Of a DNA stretch of 64,000 bases, positions 19,906-45,270 are shown one piece after another. Source of the DNA: Sodalis ligni (GTDB lineage: Bacteria; Pseudomonadota; Gammaproteobacteria; Enterobacterales; Enterobacteriaceae); assembly GCF_016865525.2 (NCBI RefSeq), contig NZ_CP075169.1, positions 4,526,337 to 4,590,336 of the forward strand, in the 5' to 3' direction. Each line of letters begins with the position of its first letter. Positions within the stretch are counted from its first letter, which is position 1. The notes beneath the pieces were generated by a model. The model saw only the letters and a list, made by a program, of their open reading frames with translations, was not told where the DNA came from and searched no databases. The position numbers were made by a program, and so were the translations under genes.

Positions 19906-20169
19906 TCACCTCTGTGGTTTTTGTTTTTCCTCAGGCAAGTTAACCTGATTACGTTCGGTGCCACGCAAATACGCCCAATCAACGTCCGGGCGAAGTTCTT
20001 CGCACGTCACCGCGCCTGATGTGGCTTTCTCAATTTCTGGGCATCGTTCTGCGGGAATGGCTCGTATACCATTTGCCCATTGGGAAATGAGTGACGAATT
20101 GACTCCCAATAATTTCCCTAAGAGAGTCGCCTGCCCCCTTTGCAGGCCGGTATAGGTTCTGAGATTCAT
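19906..20169 (-). CDS. Cro-type repressor (YdaS-like helix-turn-helix)
   Basis: 87 residues from ATG at 20169 with GGAT upstream. The block RGQATLLGKLLGVNSSLISQ followed by WANGIRAIPAERCPEIEKAT and SGAVTCEELRPDV is the YdaS/Cro family signature. It is the first gene of the right operon, read leftward, and faces the CI-like gene across operators at 20208-20276. Confidence 0.9.
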   Translation of the reverse strand: MNLRTYTGLQRGQATLLGKLLGVNSSLISQWANGIRAIPAERCPEIEKATSGAVTCEELRPDVDWAYLRGTERNQVNLPEEKQKPQR

Positions 20170-20207
20170 GCTTAATCCATGTTTCGGCTTGACTAAGGAT
20201 GAGAATA

Positions 20208-20276
20208 TAGCGAAACGCGAAATTGCGCGCAATACATTTAAGCGTAACGCGCATATAAATGTTTCGCGTTTTGCTA
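20208..20276. promoter_or_regulatory. Right operator region with pR
   Basis: Copies of a 15-16 base operator: TAGCGAAACGCGAAAT at 20208-20223, a degenerate copy near 20240-20253 (AAGCGTAACGCGCA) and TTTCGCGTTTTGCTA at 20262-20276. On the minus strand TTGCGC, 17 bases, TATATT forms a promoter for cro, with the first operator in its spacer. The same operator recurs twice at pL. The repressor gene starts 14 bases to the right. Confidence 0.78.
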
Positions 20277-20289
20277 TTAAATTTTACAA

Positions 20290-20760
20290 ATGAAAGACAT
20301 TGACGAGATTCGGCGCGACAATTTGCGCCACATTGAGCAGGAATGTGGGGGTCCATCTGCTACCGCTGAATTGGTGGGGATGTCTCCTGGACAGTTTGTA
20401 AATCTTCGGGATGGGGCAAAAGACTCAAAAACCGGGAAAGCGCGCGGCATGCGTAAAGAGACAGCGCGGCGCATTGAAGTTGCGGCTGGAAAACCAAAAG
20501 GTTGGCTGGACGTAGATCACTTAGGTGCCTTAAAGACAGATTCAACCTCGCTGAAAGCTACTGGTATCGAAGAAAAATATTTGTCATTATCAAAAGAAAA
20601 ACAATCTGTTATAGACTATTTTTTGCTATCAGATGGTGAACCAGCACCCGAGTGGGTAGACAGGGATGCGCGGGCATATGCCGATTCGCTTAAGCTAAAA
20701 GCGCGCGGATGGTTGGAGAGAGGTCAAACAAGTAGCGATATAAAGAAAAATCGCGCTTAG
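20290..20760 (+). CDS. CI-like prophage repressor without a peptidase domain
   Basis: 156 residues. The N-terminal domain has RRDNLRHIEQECGGPSATAE, then LVGMSPGQFVNLRDGAKDSK and GMRKETARRIEVAAGKPKGW, a helix-turn-helix arrangement known from lambdoid repressors of this group. The C-terminal 70 residues are short and charged, with no S24/LexA-like Ser-Lys protease, so RecA-stimulated self-cleavage is not expected. Divergent from cro. Confidence 0.8.
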   Translation: MKDIDEIRRDNLRHIEQECGGPSATAELVGMSPGQFVNLRDGAKDSKTGKARGMRKETARRIEVAAGKPKGWLDVDHLGALKTDSTSLKATGIEEKYLSLSKEKQSVIDYFLLSDGEPAPEWVDRDARAYADSLKLKARGWLERGQTSSDIKKNRA

Positions 20761-21607: not shown

Positions 21608-21765
21608 TCTACTGCCTCCAACCATTTCTCACGAGATTCCCCGATATACCCATCCTGATTTTGAAGGGTCGCCATTAGATAACCCTTCCCCAGGTAAGTA
21701 CTTTTCAAAATCCCCGCCTAAGTCCAGACGCTCAATTTAAGCGATCCGTTTTCTCTATCAAAAAA

Positions 21766-21819
21766 TTTCGCGTTTCGCTAATATTAATTGTTGACTTTCA
21801 TTTCGCGTTTCGCTAAAAA
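21766..21819 (+). promoter_or_regulatory. Left promoter pL with two operators
   Basis: Two identical operators TTTCGCGTTTCGCTA at 21766-21780 and 21801-21815, 35 bases apart. TTGACT at 21791-21796, 17 bases, TAAAAA at 21814-21819 forms a good sigma-70 promoter whose spacer contains the second operator. Both match the reverse complement of the right operator at 20208. This drives the plus-strand left operon toward int. Confidence 0.85.
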
Positions 21820-21923
21820 TATACATCAACAGCGAACAGGCAGGACGCCCACGAAGTAGCCGCCGGTGGCAAATGAATGACCGGATGATTCGCAATAAGA
21901 CACACAGCAGATGGGGCTTCTAA

Positions 21924-22232
21924 ATGAAAAAATTTAAATGGGTCATTTGTGAGTGCTGCGAAGGAAGTGGGAAAGTCGATAACCCTGCATTCAGCAACGG
22001 CATAACTTCCAGTGAATGGGCTGAATGGGGCGAAGAAGACCATCTAAATTATATCGGCGGGTTTTATGACGTCTGCTGCCCATCTTGCCGGGGTAGCGGT
22101 AAACGCCAGGTTCCCATCGTTTCCGCGCTTAGTTTCGCTGAAAAACGCGAACTGGTCCAACAACGGAGGGATAACCGGGAACTGGCTGAATGCGACCGCA
22201 TTCATGCAATGGAACGCATGCTGGGTTGTTAA
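21924..22232 (+). CDS. Small phage protein with DnaJ-like CxxCxGxG zinc motifs
   Basis: 102 residues. CECCEGSGKVDNP (about 9-21) and CCPSCRGSGKRQV (about 50-62) form a paired zinc ribbon like the DnaJ central domain. The rest is helical and charged (EKRELVQQRRDNRELAECDR). It is the first gene after pL. Zinc-ribbon proteins in this place may act in host takeover, but there is no direct evidence. Confidence 0.78.
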   Translation: MKKFKWVICECCEGSGKVDNPAFSNGITSSEWAEWGEEDHLNYIGGFYDVCCPSCRGSGKRQVPIVSALSFAEKRELVQQRRDNRELAECDRIHAMERMLGC

Positions 22233-22256
22233 TGCTGCGCCCTTCAGGGCGCTCTA

Positions 22257-22336
22257 CACAATCGCATGAGCACTGTTACGGTGGCCGGCCCATAACCCAA
22301 TCCATCGTTTTTGCCGACAGTGCTCAGCCGATTGTG
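22257..22336 (+). ncRNA. Long bipartite hairpin, first RNA element
   Basis: CACAATCG (22257) pairs with CGATTGTG (22329-22336) and GAGCACTGT (22268-22276) with ACAGTGCTC (22317-22325), separated by a symmetric 3-by-3 internal loop. The 40-base apical part contains GTGGCCGG and a CCCATAACCC segment that can pair with GGGGTTAT downstream (22353-22360), so alternative folding is possible. Confidence 0.6.
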
Positions 22337-22370
22337 TGATCCGGTGATTGTTGGGGTTATCCGCCCTGCA

Positions 22371-22387
22371 GCTGGTTCGACTCCAGC
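22371..22387 (+). ncRNA. T-arm-like hairpin 1
   Basis: GCTGG, loop TTCGACT, CCAGC: a perfect 5-bp stem with the seven-base loop of a tRNA T-arm. No acceptor-stem partner for the following bases is found within tRNA distance, and a small hairpin CCATG/CATGG follows at 22391-22410. Confidence 0.6.
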
Positions 22388-22726
22388 CGCCCATGGATGC
22401 TAACGCATGGCAACCAGGTGAGGCAGTGATAGATGGTGGACGCCGCACTTACGCTGATAAATCCAGGGAACCTGCCGGTGCATGTACGCCGGTCACACCG
22501 TGCCGCGCCACCCTTGGTTAGGTGGCAACAATAACACCTGAGAGAACTTCCCTGGGCTTGCCCAGGGAGCCGGGGCAACCAAGTATCCGGCCGCCCGGTC
22601 CCCGTTAACGGACCACTTATTCGGGACTGGATGACTTCCACTTCAAGACGGTCCCTATAAATGTCCAGAAAGTGGCGCGACTGGCGCGGGAGGCAGTGAC
22701 AAGCCGGGAGAGACCGGCACCCAACA

Positions 22727-22848
22727 GGTAAGAGCATTGACGAGCAAGGCATAGAGGCTGGTTCGATTCCAGGCGCCAGGATTGTTTTATATCTGGTGAT
22801 GGGCAGGGAAAAGGTCCGTTCGATTCGGACACCGGCAATGCTCTTACC
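22727..22848 (+). ncRNA. Closed RNA domain with two T-arm-like hairpins
   Basis: GGTAAGAGCATTG (22727-22739) and CAATGCTCTTACC (22836-22848) are exactly complementary over 13 bases and enclose two hairpins: CTGG, TTCGATT, CCAG (22758-22772) and GTCCG, TTCGATT, CGGAC (22814-22830). The layout is a closed multibranch RNA of 122 bases. Such regularity without a reading frame argues for selection on RNA structure. Confidence 0.62.
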
Positions 22849-23064
22849 GTTGTGGTGAAAGGTAAATTGTCAGGAGCTTACCTGGTATTTGATTACTTGA
22901 AACAAGCGTTGGCGAGTAGGCGCGCTAACTTTCACCACAAACCCATCGCCTTGGAACGCGATAAATGCTGTGTGTAGTTCTTGGCGGTGGCGTCGGCTCT
23001 TCAACTCAAAAGGGGTGAAGATAATGTTCTGGCCGGCGCGCCGCCCTTTTTACGCGAGGTAACC

Positions 23065-43935: not shown

Positions 43936-45270
43936 ATGGCGCATATAATGCCTTTATTGTGGGTTTTAGTCGGGATAGCGGTGTTGGTAATATTGATTGT
44001 TAAAGTCAAAATGCACACTATTTTGGCGTTAATGGTCTCGGCAATTTTTCTTGCATTTGCCGAAGGAATGCCCATCGATAAAATAGTCGCCACGATACAA
44101 ATGGGGCTAAGCAGTATTTTAGGCACGCTAACCCTGATTGTTATTTTTGGCGCCGTGATCGGTAAATTAATGACGGAATCCGGTGCATCGCAGCAGATTT
44201 CCGATACTATTATCAACCTGCTGGGCGTGCGCTACCTGCAATATGCATTGTTGATCATCGGTACTATTTTCGGCATGGCCATGTTTTATGAGGTGGCGTT
44301 TTTGATTACCGCGCCGCTGGTGATAAGCATAGCGAAAAAAGCCAATATTCCCTATATGAGATTAATTGTGCCTTTGGTGGCCGGCGCAACCATGGGGCAC
44401 AGCATTTTTCCGCCGCAGCCGGGACCTATGGCGTTAACCACCGCGTTTCATGCCAATATCTCGCTGGTCTATATCTTTGGCCTGATAGTTATCATTCCCT
44501 CCATAATCTGTTCCGGCATCATATTGACAAAATTCATTCCGGGCATCGATAAAATGCCGCTGGGTGACATTATGGCGCCCCCCGAGTTCAAACCCGCCAA
44601 CGAGCTGCCGGGGTTCGGCATCAGTTTATTGGTGCCGTTGCTGCCTGCTATCTTGATGATTTTCTCGTCAATCATCCGGCTGATAGTGGATAAAGACAGC
44701 GAGCTGTTCAAGGTGGCAGCCTTTCTCGGCAGCGCCGAAATCAGCATGCTGATTGCCGTGCTGGTAGGCATTTTCGCACTGGGCGTTTTAAGGGGAAAAA
44801 GCGGCCAGCAGATTACGGACACCTTAAGCGTCGCCATCTCCGGCGTATCAAACGTGTTATTGGTCATTGCCGCCGGCGGCATCATGAAAGAAGTGATTAT
44901 CAACACCGGCGTCGGCAACGCCATTGTCAGCATGGTGGGGAATATTCCGGTTTCGCCGCTGATTCTGGCATGGCTCATTACCGTCATTATACGTATCCTG
45001 ACCGGGCAAGGCGCCGTAGCCGCCATCACCGCCGCGGGCATTGTGGCGCCCATGATTGATGCTTTCCACGTCAATCCGGTCTTGATGGTATTGGTGTGCG
45101 CGGTGGGCAGCAATACCATGACATTGATGTATGACGGCGGGTTTCTTTTATTTCAGCAGTCATTCAAGATTTCCATGAAAGACACCTTTAAAACCTGGGG
45201 ATTATTGGAGCTGGTAAATTCTCTGGTGGGGCTGGCGGTGGTGATGCTACTGAGCCTGTTTGTCCACTGA
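43936..45270 (+). CDS. GntP-family gluconate/sugar-acid permease
   Basis: 444 residues with 12 or so hydrophobic segments. Family blocks include MHTILALMVSAIFLAFAEGM, FGAVIGKLMTESGASQQISD, AFLITAPLVISIAKKANIPY and GHSIFPPQPGPMALTTAFHA, and the C-terminal GSNTMTLMYDGGFLLFQQSF. It should import a gluconate-like sugar acid or D-serine type substrate in symport with H+. No kinase or dehydratase gene is adjacent, so the substrate cannot be read from context. CRP control is indicated. Confidence 0.92.
   Translation: MAHIMPLLWVLVGIAVLVILIVKVKMHTILALMVSAIFLAFAEGMPIDKIVATIQMGLSSILGTLTLIVIFGAVIGKLMTESGASQQISDTIINLLGVRYLQYALLIIGTIFGMAMFYEVAFLITAPLVISIAKKANIPYMRLIVPLVAGATMGHSIFPPQPGPMALTTAFHANISLVYIFGLIVIIPSIICSGIILTKFIPGIDKMPLGDIMAPPEFKPANELPGFGISLLVPLLPAILMIFSSIIRLIVDKDSELFKVAAFLGSAEISMLIAVLVGIFALGVLRGKSGQQITDTLSVAISGVSNVLLVIAAGGIMKEVIINTGVGNAIVSMVGNIPVSPLILAWLITVIIRILTGQGAVAAITAAGIVAPMIDAFHVNPVLMVLVCAVGSNTMTLMYDGGFLLFQQSFKISMKDTFKTWGLLELVNSLVGLAVVMLLSLFVH

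Follow-up and report, generated by a model that had tools for sequence, protein, structure and literature searches.

What does a prophage of Sodalis ligni keep in the space between its repressor gene and the operon downstream, where mimics of the tRNA T-arm are crowded together? The element in question was first placed at 22233-22870 of the window (the whole stretch of DNA analysed, 64,000 nucleotides); it lies between a PHROG 12107 repressor and the downstream operon. A related element lies inside the 745-base gap from the repressor gene to yfdP in E. coli IAI39, and another in the gap ahead of the DUF2303 operon of phage phiNP. The features of the window are listed here in order of position.

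19906-20232, minus strand: YdaS/Cro-like gene, faced by the PHROG 12107 repressor gene.
20290-20757: prophage repressor, PHROG 12107, the gene 5' of the RNA element.
21765-21820, plus strand: likely pL promoter with repeated ATTTCGCGTTTCGCTA (possible operators).
22257-22336, plus strand: module A, a CACAAT...ATTGTG stem with GGCCCATAACCC in its loop, compared with related loci; its arms, 22257-22275 and 22318-22336, are CACAATCG-CA-TGAGCACTG and CAGTGCTCA-GC-CGATTGTG.
22371-22387, plus strand: T-arm 1, GCTGG-TTCGACT-CCAGC (loop 22376-22382, 5-bp stem), in the minimum-energy fold.
22411-22568, plus strand: further hairpins including TCCCTGGG-CTTG-CCCAGGGA (22549-22568), from the predicted fold and comparison with genome G003.
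22623-22675, plus strand: module Q, an H-type pseudoknot with conserved CTGGATGACTTC and TTCAAGACGG, from a 33-sequence alignment.
22623-22626 with 22652-22655, and 22639-22643 with 22670-22674, plus strand: helices a and c of module Q, from covariation.
22703-22718, plus strand: 5' flanking hairpin GCCGG...CCGGC, immediately 5' of the scaffold stem, its sequence varying among relatives.
22720-22739, plus strand: 5' arm of the scaffold stem, CCCAACAGGTAAGAGCATTG, from alignment and covariation.
22758-22772, plus strand: T-arm 2, CTGG-TTCGATT-CCAG (loop 22762-22768, 4-bp stem), from covariation.
22814-22830, plus strand: T-arm 3, GTCCG-TTCGATT-CGGAC (loop 22819-22825, 5-bp stem).
22836-22854, plus strand: 3' arm of the scaffold stem, CAATGCTCTTACCGTTGTG, from alignment and covariation.
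22850-22861 with 22929-22940, plus strand: second 12-bp stem, TTGTGGTGAAAG and CTTTCACCACAA, from the predicted fold.
22969-23051, plus strand: DicF-like hairpin, then TTTTT at about 23050, from an Rfam DicF match.
From 23065: operon gene for a phrog_204 protein, whose counterpart in E. coli IAI39 is annotated yfdP.
From 23472: operon gene for a DUF2303 protein.
From 24390: operon gene for a deoxyribonucleoside 5'-monophosphatase, yfdR in IAI39.
From 27554: operon gene for an integrase.

A scan for T-arms (TTCRANY loop on a stem of 4 bp or more, closed by a G-C pair) returned exactly three from 22233-22870, with stems of 4-5 bp as had been predicted; at least three arose in 0 of 5000 dinucleotide shuffles of this stretch (mean 0.0012). 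The 13-bp perfect inverted repeat described around two of these hairpins was recovered at 22727-22739 and 22836-22848, enclosing T-arms 2 and 3, and the long stem with a symmetric internal loop proved to be that of module A (17 pairs, 2x2 loop). Nor does any full tRNA fit, as originally stated: ARAGORN called 0 genes and Rfam gave 0 tRNA (RF00005) matches in the window. The strand from 22233 to 22960 has a predicted folding energy of -300.3 kcal/mol (z -4.36), and 20 shuffles of it average -265.5 (sd 8.0). T-arms 1 and 3 are present in the minimum-energy fold and T-arm 2 is absent, so that T-arm 2 rests on comparison with relatives. The features placed within 22233-22870 were upheld but the 3' limit was not, as structure runs on to about 23050, where the DicF-like hairpin and its TTTTT form the probable 3' end of the RNA. 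The DicF match (RF00039, 22969-23046) scores 20.9 bits with an E value of 0.098, and the gathering score is 48; a terminator scan restricted to loops of 3-8 did not list the hairpin at 22969-23051. At the other end, copies of ATTTCGCGTTTCGCTA at 21765 and 21800 stand beside a sigma-70-like plus-strand site, TTGACT-18-AAAAAT (21791-21820), one of two in the region where 1.6 are expected. From position, the repeat and this one consensus site, which is not above chance, we infer that the RNA is transcribed from pL.

Is this structure maintained as RNA? The original prediction named the absence of compensatory changes in related prophages as the result that would count against it, and such changes are present, in 13 of 34 pairs of the T-arm domain and 8 of 15 pairs of the pseudoknot. 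The first figure comes from alignment A1, which holds 40 relatives of the domain 22720-22854 (stem, T-arm, hairpin, T-arm) out of 46 candidates, six false motif hits having been left out. In A1, 93.1% of cells are paired and 109 are doubly changed, compared with 34 in shuffles (0/500 as high); sliding the partners by 1-3 columns gives 35-55% pairing. A less clear-cut measure, the count of further pair types, was equalled in 15/500 shuffles. Pairing reaches 99.0% in T-arm 3, where three pairs are doubly changed, and the helix of T-arm 2 is weaker at 80.8%; the T-loop letters are nearly invariant in both. A subset alignment, A3, consists of 29 of the 40 A1 sequences. For module Q, alignment A2 retained 33 of the 48 listed matches after removal of two poor ones and 13 that were identical or nearly so. 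Here 94.4% of cells pair, the doubly changed pairs make up 4/4 in helix a and 4/7 in helix c, and 68 cells are doubly changed as against 19 in shuffles (0/500 as high); on the less clear-cut count of doubly changed pairs, 5/500 shuffles scored as high. The pattern that fetched most module Q loci contained neither helix a nor the 3' arm of helix c. An initial 'triple pseudoknot' was cut down to the two covarying helices, as helix b changes on one side only. Stems of the form CACAAY...RTTGTG lying outside the search patterns yielded 21 arm pairs, preselected for complementarity, with 80 doubly changed cells against a shuffled mean of 21.

Because their stems change by compensation, the T-arm domain and the pseudoknot are RNA structures, and the proposed structured RNA with mimics of tRNA T-arms is borne out by both alignments. 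We regard it as very nearly certain that the region is a real structured RNA. A protein-coding reading of the T-arm domain was rejected, with a stop in 27-40 of the 40 aligned rows in each of six frames. The annotation of phage 118970_sal3 places a hypothetical protein on the strand opposite the RNA element (L010:2717-3133, minus strand), a gene call that is probably spurious.

The family is widespread. The window's T-arm domain occurs in 81/5426 E. coli genomes and in phages of Klebsiella, Salmonella, Citrobacter and Edwardsiella, and a plain DNA search matched 14/392 genomes of the host family, some only in part and the source genome included. The stem pattern found 82 stretches of viral contigs, a variant of it 31, and genome contigs supplied 15 stretches; the pattern AACCCCATCGCCNTGGAACGC hit 0 viral contigs. 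Two covariance models built here, R2 and R1, found matches in 2/369 and 1/295 genomes, respectively, the source genome counted in each, in searches whose recall was low (11-13 candidates scored per genome) and from which we conclude no absence; within the source genome, R1 matches once and R2 three times, one of these matches being strong and two weak. Module Q was present in 39 viral-contig stretches; RiverRider and Piffle have it within their tRNA clusters, and Mica has it close to a tRNA-like gene. In one metagenomic viral contig (L174:1359-2015) it stands 241 bases 5' of a tmRNA called by ARAGORN with the flag tmRNA*.

Sites of the module family include pL leaders, phage tRNA clusters and the late leader of lambda. 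In lambda the constant stem occupies 44785-44863 (L202:3650-3728), overlapping orf-64 and lying 3' of a terminator-like hairpin that we take to be tR'. The lambda version of the stem is found in 84 phage records and 162/5426 E. coli genomes, and the late-leader copy is also in strains such as BL21(DE3). Locus L202, from an assembly named Streptomyces, is lambda; L188 and L200, contigs of 48.4-48.5 kb in assemblies named Pseudomonas and Shewanella, may represent the same lambda contamination. A record entitled 'Campylobacter phage CJLB-4' is identical to lambda across 1301 compared bases.

Exchange of modules is apparent throughout. Among the 135 scaffold instances, near-identical copies included, inserts fall into 45 types, 5' flanks into 45 and 3' flanks into 55; 16 of the insert types recur in more than one flank combination, the commonest between 11 5'-flank and 10 3'-flank types. 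Loci L037-L149 were fetched by exact stem patterns, and conservation of the stem among them is therefore by construction, while their inserts and flanks were free of selection. The homologous leader of G003, a genome of the same genus, precedes the same downstream gene and keeps the neighbouring modules (90% identity over most of query 156-313, and over 701-758), and it has an unrelated 42-nt insert and no recognisable module Q. In phage BUCT610 two scaffolds stand in tandem, the terminal CACAAC of the first abutting ACACAAC. We hold with high confidence that the constant CACAAC...GUUGUG stem with its exchangeable inserts defines a modular RNA family. Among the inserts, those of L061, L064, L069 and L131 are structured, about 97-101 nt long and start C(A/G)CCGGATAT, and Rfam assigns them to no family at gathering score. 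A type I hammerhead-like sequence (L047:7921-7967, minus strand) sits inside the scaffold loop of one lambda-like late leader; it scores 24.7 bits (E 8e-4), under the gathering score of 34, and its insert type has five instances.

A constant stem around unrelated inserts could also be a processing stalk, in which the long imperfect stem would be a site for RNase III (or RNase P) that frees the insert as a small RNA, the inserts being unrelated cargo RNAs. Stalks of rRNA precursors are processing sites of this kind. The mismatch or internal loop conserved within the stem is consistent with such a role, as are the hammerhead-like sequence in one insert type and the BUCT610 element, which runs into the 3' end of a tRNA with the remainder of that tRNA absent. 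However, cleavage by RNase III would not require a stem sequence as highly conserved as this one, and we judge this explanation unlikely, while noting that it is compatible with an RNA acting in trans. The truncated tRNA of BUCT610 and the tRNA-derived look of the T-arms would equally suit functionless debris of decayed tRNA clusters, but debris would not keep its T-stems by compensatory change, nor one insert across so many flank types, and we consider this origin very improbable indeed.

The T-arms follow the stems, and they do so on one strand. Around 125 non-redundant stems, the sense strand carries 97 T-arm hairpins outside ARAGORN-called tRNAs in 131,464 bases and the antisense strand 0, with 6 elsewhere in the remaining 963,771 bases; the tRNA-like content is strand-specific. 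As tRNAs were excluded by ARAGORN only, and it missed one Rfam-called tRNA in L211, a few of the counted T-arms may be uncalled tRNAs. At least one T-arm hairpin is present at 66/125 stems. Most of the hairpins (68 of the 97) belong to the insert type of the window; the other 29 represent 23 different sequences at 26 stems, or 0.23 per kb, about 37 times the control density. A general role for T-arms is weakened because the T-loop occurs in only 7/45 insert types, and in neither the lambda insert (type 21) nor the G003 leader (type 0).

This asymmetry bears on an explanation at the level of DNA, whereby the constant stem would be a boundary sequence, a patch of homology for recombination between modules, with the RNA passively transcribed. 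The mosaic flanks are as expected of such patches, the record of phage CUS-3 labels a stretch at the lambda-type site 'bsq4; boundary sequence', and the boundary-sequence idea for phages is mentioned in an excerpt of PMC3029335. Yet compensatory changes in the stems and pseudoknot, and T-arms at 97 to 0 between strands, are properties of RNA; boundary sequences are already weakened as the sole explanation, and we find them a decidedly improbable one.

Position raises a further alternative, a cis-acting leader: a put-like antiterminator or attenuator that would govern whether transcription passes the DicF-like hairpin and enters the pL operon. The element lies between the inferred pL and the first operon genes, with a hairpin and TTTTT before them, its position is the same in IAI39 and phiNP, and the lambda copy comes right after the terminator-like hairpin. 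The stem arms also overlap in the window, where the 5' strand of the predicted 12-bp stem is the end of the scaffold stem and an alternative pairing is possible; in this model the GTTGTG arm has two possible partners, the CACAAC-type arm upstream and CACCACAA downstream, and the resulting folds exclude each other. An attenuator, however, leaves the T-arms, tags and swappable inserts unexplained, and in phages DP01 and LPST49 the element is opposite in strand to both flanking genes. In SPN9TCW and BUCT610 the closest gene upstream is on the other strand, tRNAs lie downstream on the element's own strand in SPN9TCW and DP01, and TTGACA-N17-TAGATT lies 5' of the element in DP01, LPST49 and BUCT610. 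Given this orientation and this motif, the element in such phages is not just a protein-gene leader, and it is mainly for this reason that we prefer a trans-acting RNA. We regard the cis-acting leader as somewhat unlikely; it and the processing and boundary explanations are in part compatible with action in trans.

What might such an RNA present? The loop of module A in 16 related loci reads GGGCTCAT(A/T)ACCC, and in the window GGCCCATAACCC, which by sequence is similar to the anticodon arm of initiator tRNA. The string GGGCTCATAACCC of module A relatives has three copies in the window's genome, every one within a tRNA-Met gene, and these genes we presume to encode initiator tRNAs. The anticodon-like loop of the window has only two G-C pairs.

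Several related phages carry, about 110-420 bases from the scaffold, a frame of exactly 10 codons that starts Ala-Asn and has Ala before the stop. Related loci contain 15 distinct sequences of this frame, differing by synonymous and other changes (e.g. ANDDVVLMAA, ANEEMYLAVA and ANDNTFLAVA; L021, L041, L055, L104, L209-L217 and others), and they resemble the E. coli tag, ANDENYALAA. The frames lie beside the modular RNA or in stretches of lytic phages that have no genes, and no tmRNA is called there. With the stretch 5' of the tag as query, 585/50,697 phage records matched, 6 of the 30 matches listed being flanking DNA only, and the tag was present in 9/9 fetched regions. Some of these regions are stretches without genes in the Ackermannviridae phages Marshall, EspM4VN and 2050H1, and in the P1-like phage Ro157c2YLVW the tag is directly ahead of tRNAs. 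As a control, 503 other GCN-AAY-GAN sites gave exactly 10 codons in 13 cases, 6 of them ending in Ala. Neither ARAGORN nor Rfam found a tmRNA in L209-L217, and the window region has no ssrA-like tag frame. The tag modules are suggestive, from their sequence, of trans-translation. Three Ackermannviridae stretches without annotated protein genes (L214:564-2562, from Marshall; L210:719-2201; L212:1024-3073) have the tag module together with T-arm hairpins, and in phage cp19 an STnc100 sRNA match of 53.6 bits (L216:2547-2761) lies about 1 kb 3' of the tag module.

The reading that we favour, tentatively and at somewhat short of an even chance for the statement as a whole, is a modular structured RNA that acts in trans and presents tRNA- or tmRNA-like parts to translation or to tRNA-targeting enzymes. 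The constant stem would be the mount, and the inserts and flanking modules interchangeable heads: T-arms, the initiator-tRNA-like anticodon loop, the H-type pseudoknot and, in related phages, the 10-codon ssrA-like tag. The window RNA would run from pL to the DicF-like hairpin. By tying up proteins whose recognition features are tRNA elbows or anticodon loops (enzymes that modify or cleave tRNA, SmpB, EF-Tu), it might then shield phage translation from tRNA-directed defence or divert ribosome rescue. A proposal in PMC10264068 is that phages use their tRNAs against anticodon nucleases, and tRNA-fMet is named there as the target of VapC-LT2; by analogy, partial tRNA mimics on long stems could serve as decoys.

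Action in trans is supported because the T-arm domain and pseudoknot covary with nearly invariant T-loop letters, because T-arm hairpins are so unevenly divided between the strands, and because cassettes are exchangeable, ssrA-like tags lie in the same RNAs and GGGCTCATAACCC matches tRNA-Met. It is weakened because only 12/125 stems are within 1 kb of a called tRNA (on the same strand in 11 cases), T-arm 2 is incompletely paired and outside the predicted fold, and the window region lacks a tag and has an anticodon-like loop with two G-C pairs only. It is weakened further because many copies are in operon leaders, as for a cis element, and because the tag control itself gives 10-codon frames at 13/503 sites. 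A broader version, which we hold to be doubtful, is a combinatorial RNA system of enterobacterial and other proteobacterial tailed phages, in which tRNA-, anticodon-, ssrA-tag- and ribozyme-like modules and the pseudoknot are exchanged on the constant stem and joining sequences. Its products would affect translation in trans, serving as decoys for tRNA-directed defence and as ssrA-type RNAs of a non-canonical kind, and lambda would carry a minimal copy in its late leader.

Were this true, a large class of noncoding RNA in phages would so far have had no family model despite a copy in the lambda late leader, and it would offer a handle on the gene deserts of Ackermannviridae and on the reasons for phage tRNA clusters, and bear on whether phages use RNA decoys or ssrA-like tags of their own against host defences. 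The lambda copy makes these ideas testable in an ordinary laboratory, and should the proposed mechanism prove wrong, the covarying modules would still look like new families of RNA.

How does this RNA compare with known systems? Rfam at gathering score found no family in the window, and at E up to 10 gave four matches in 21700-23050, of which only the weak DicF-like one is sensible; the elements of related loci likewise matched no family (full tRNA, C4, GOLLD/ROOL and others). A C4-like antisense RNA (RF01695), one of the identities first suggested, was not supported: its model hit nothing in the window, nor anything in 21700-23050 at E values of up to 10; C4 does occur in two related loci, L010 and L012, but away from the element. 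The prophage sRNAs Pas (PMC13192938) and svsR (PMC12803456) were set aside as different RNAs on the extracts of those papers. Within the open-access literature we found no paper on this RNA family, nor one matching strings of the stem and its 3' flank, and the family is apparently undescribed.

The window RNA shares with DicF a similar 3' hairpin and the same kind of operon setting, a pL leader, but its hairpin scores below the gathering score and the 700 nt upstream are not part of DicF. The HK022 put antitermination RNA is likewise a hairpin RNA from the early part of pL transcripts, but it is short and its hairpins modify RNA polymerase in cis. Lambdoid boundary sequences occupy the same late-region site and are linked to mosaicism (CUS-3 record; excerpt of PMC3029335), but were proposed as DNA recombination points, and RNA folds, inserts and T-arms go unmentioned in that excerpt. 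Phage-cluster tRNA genes have the T-arm sequence in common with the window RNA and, in some phages, neighbourhood and strand, whereas the window RNA does not have acceptor stem, D-arm and anticodon arm together. Complete phage-encoded tmRNAs are known (PMC9004378, in part). The present family resembles tmRNA in its T-arms and, in related phages, in a 10-codon tag frame ending in Ala; it differs in that the window region has no tag, and the tag-bearing relatives have no called tmRNA and no identified tRNA-like domain. Searches of the window with RF00023 and its relatives, and with ARAGORN, returned no tmRNA. Closest in setting are GOLLD and ROOL (PMC12286853), large ornate RNAs that phages and prophages encode, frequently in the neighbourhood of tRNA islands, and whose function is not known. 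At gathering score their models hit nothing in the window, and with the limit relaxed to E 10 they still hit nothing in 21700-23050 or in the RiverRider element. The present family is also a large structured phage or prophage RNA in the same genomic niche, and is set apart, going by the description in excerpts of that paper, by exchangeable inserts on a constant stem and by T-arm modules. The niche was already known; what appears to be new is the combination of a constant stem, exchangeable inserts and tRNA- or tmRNA-like modules.
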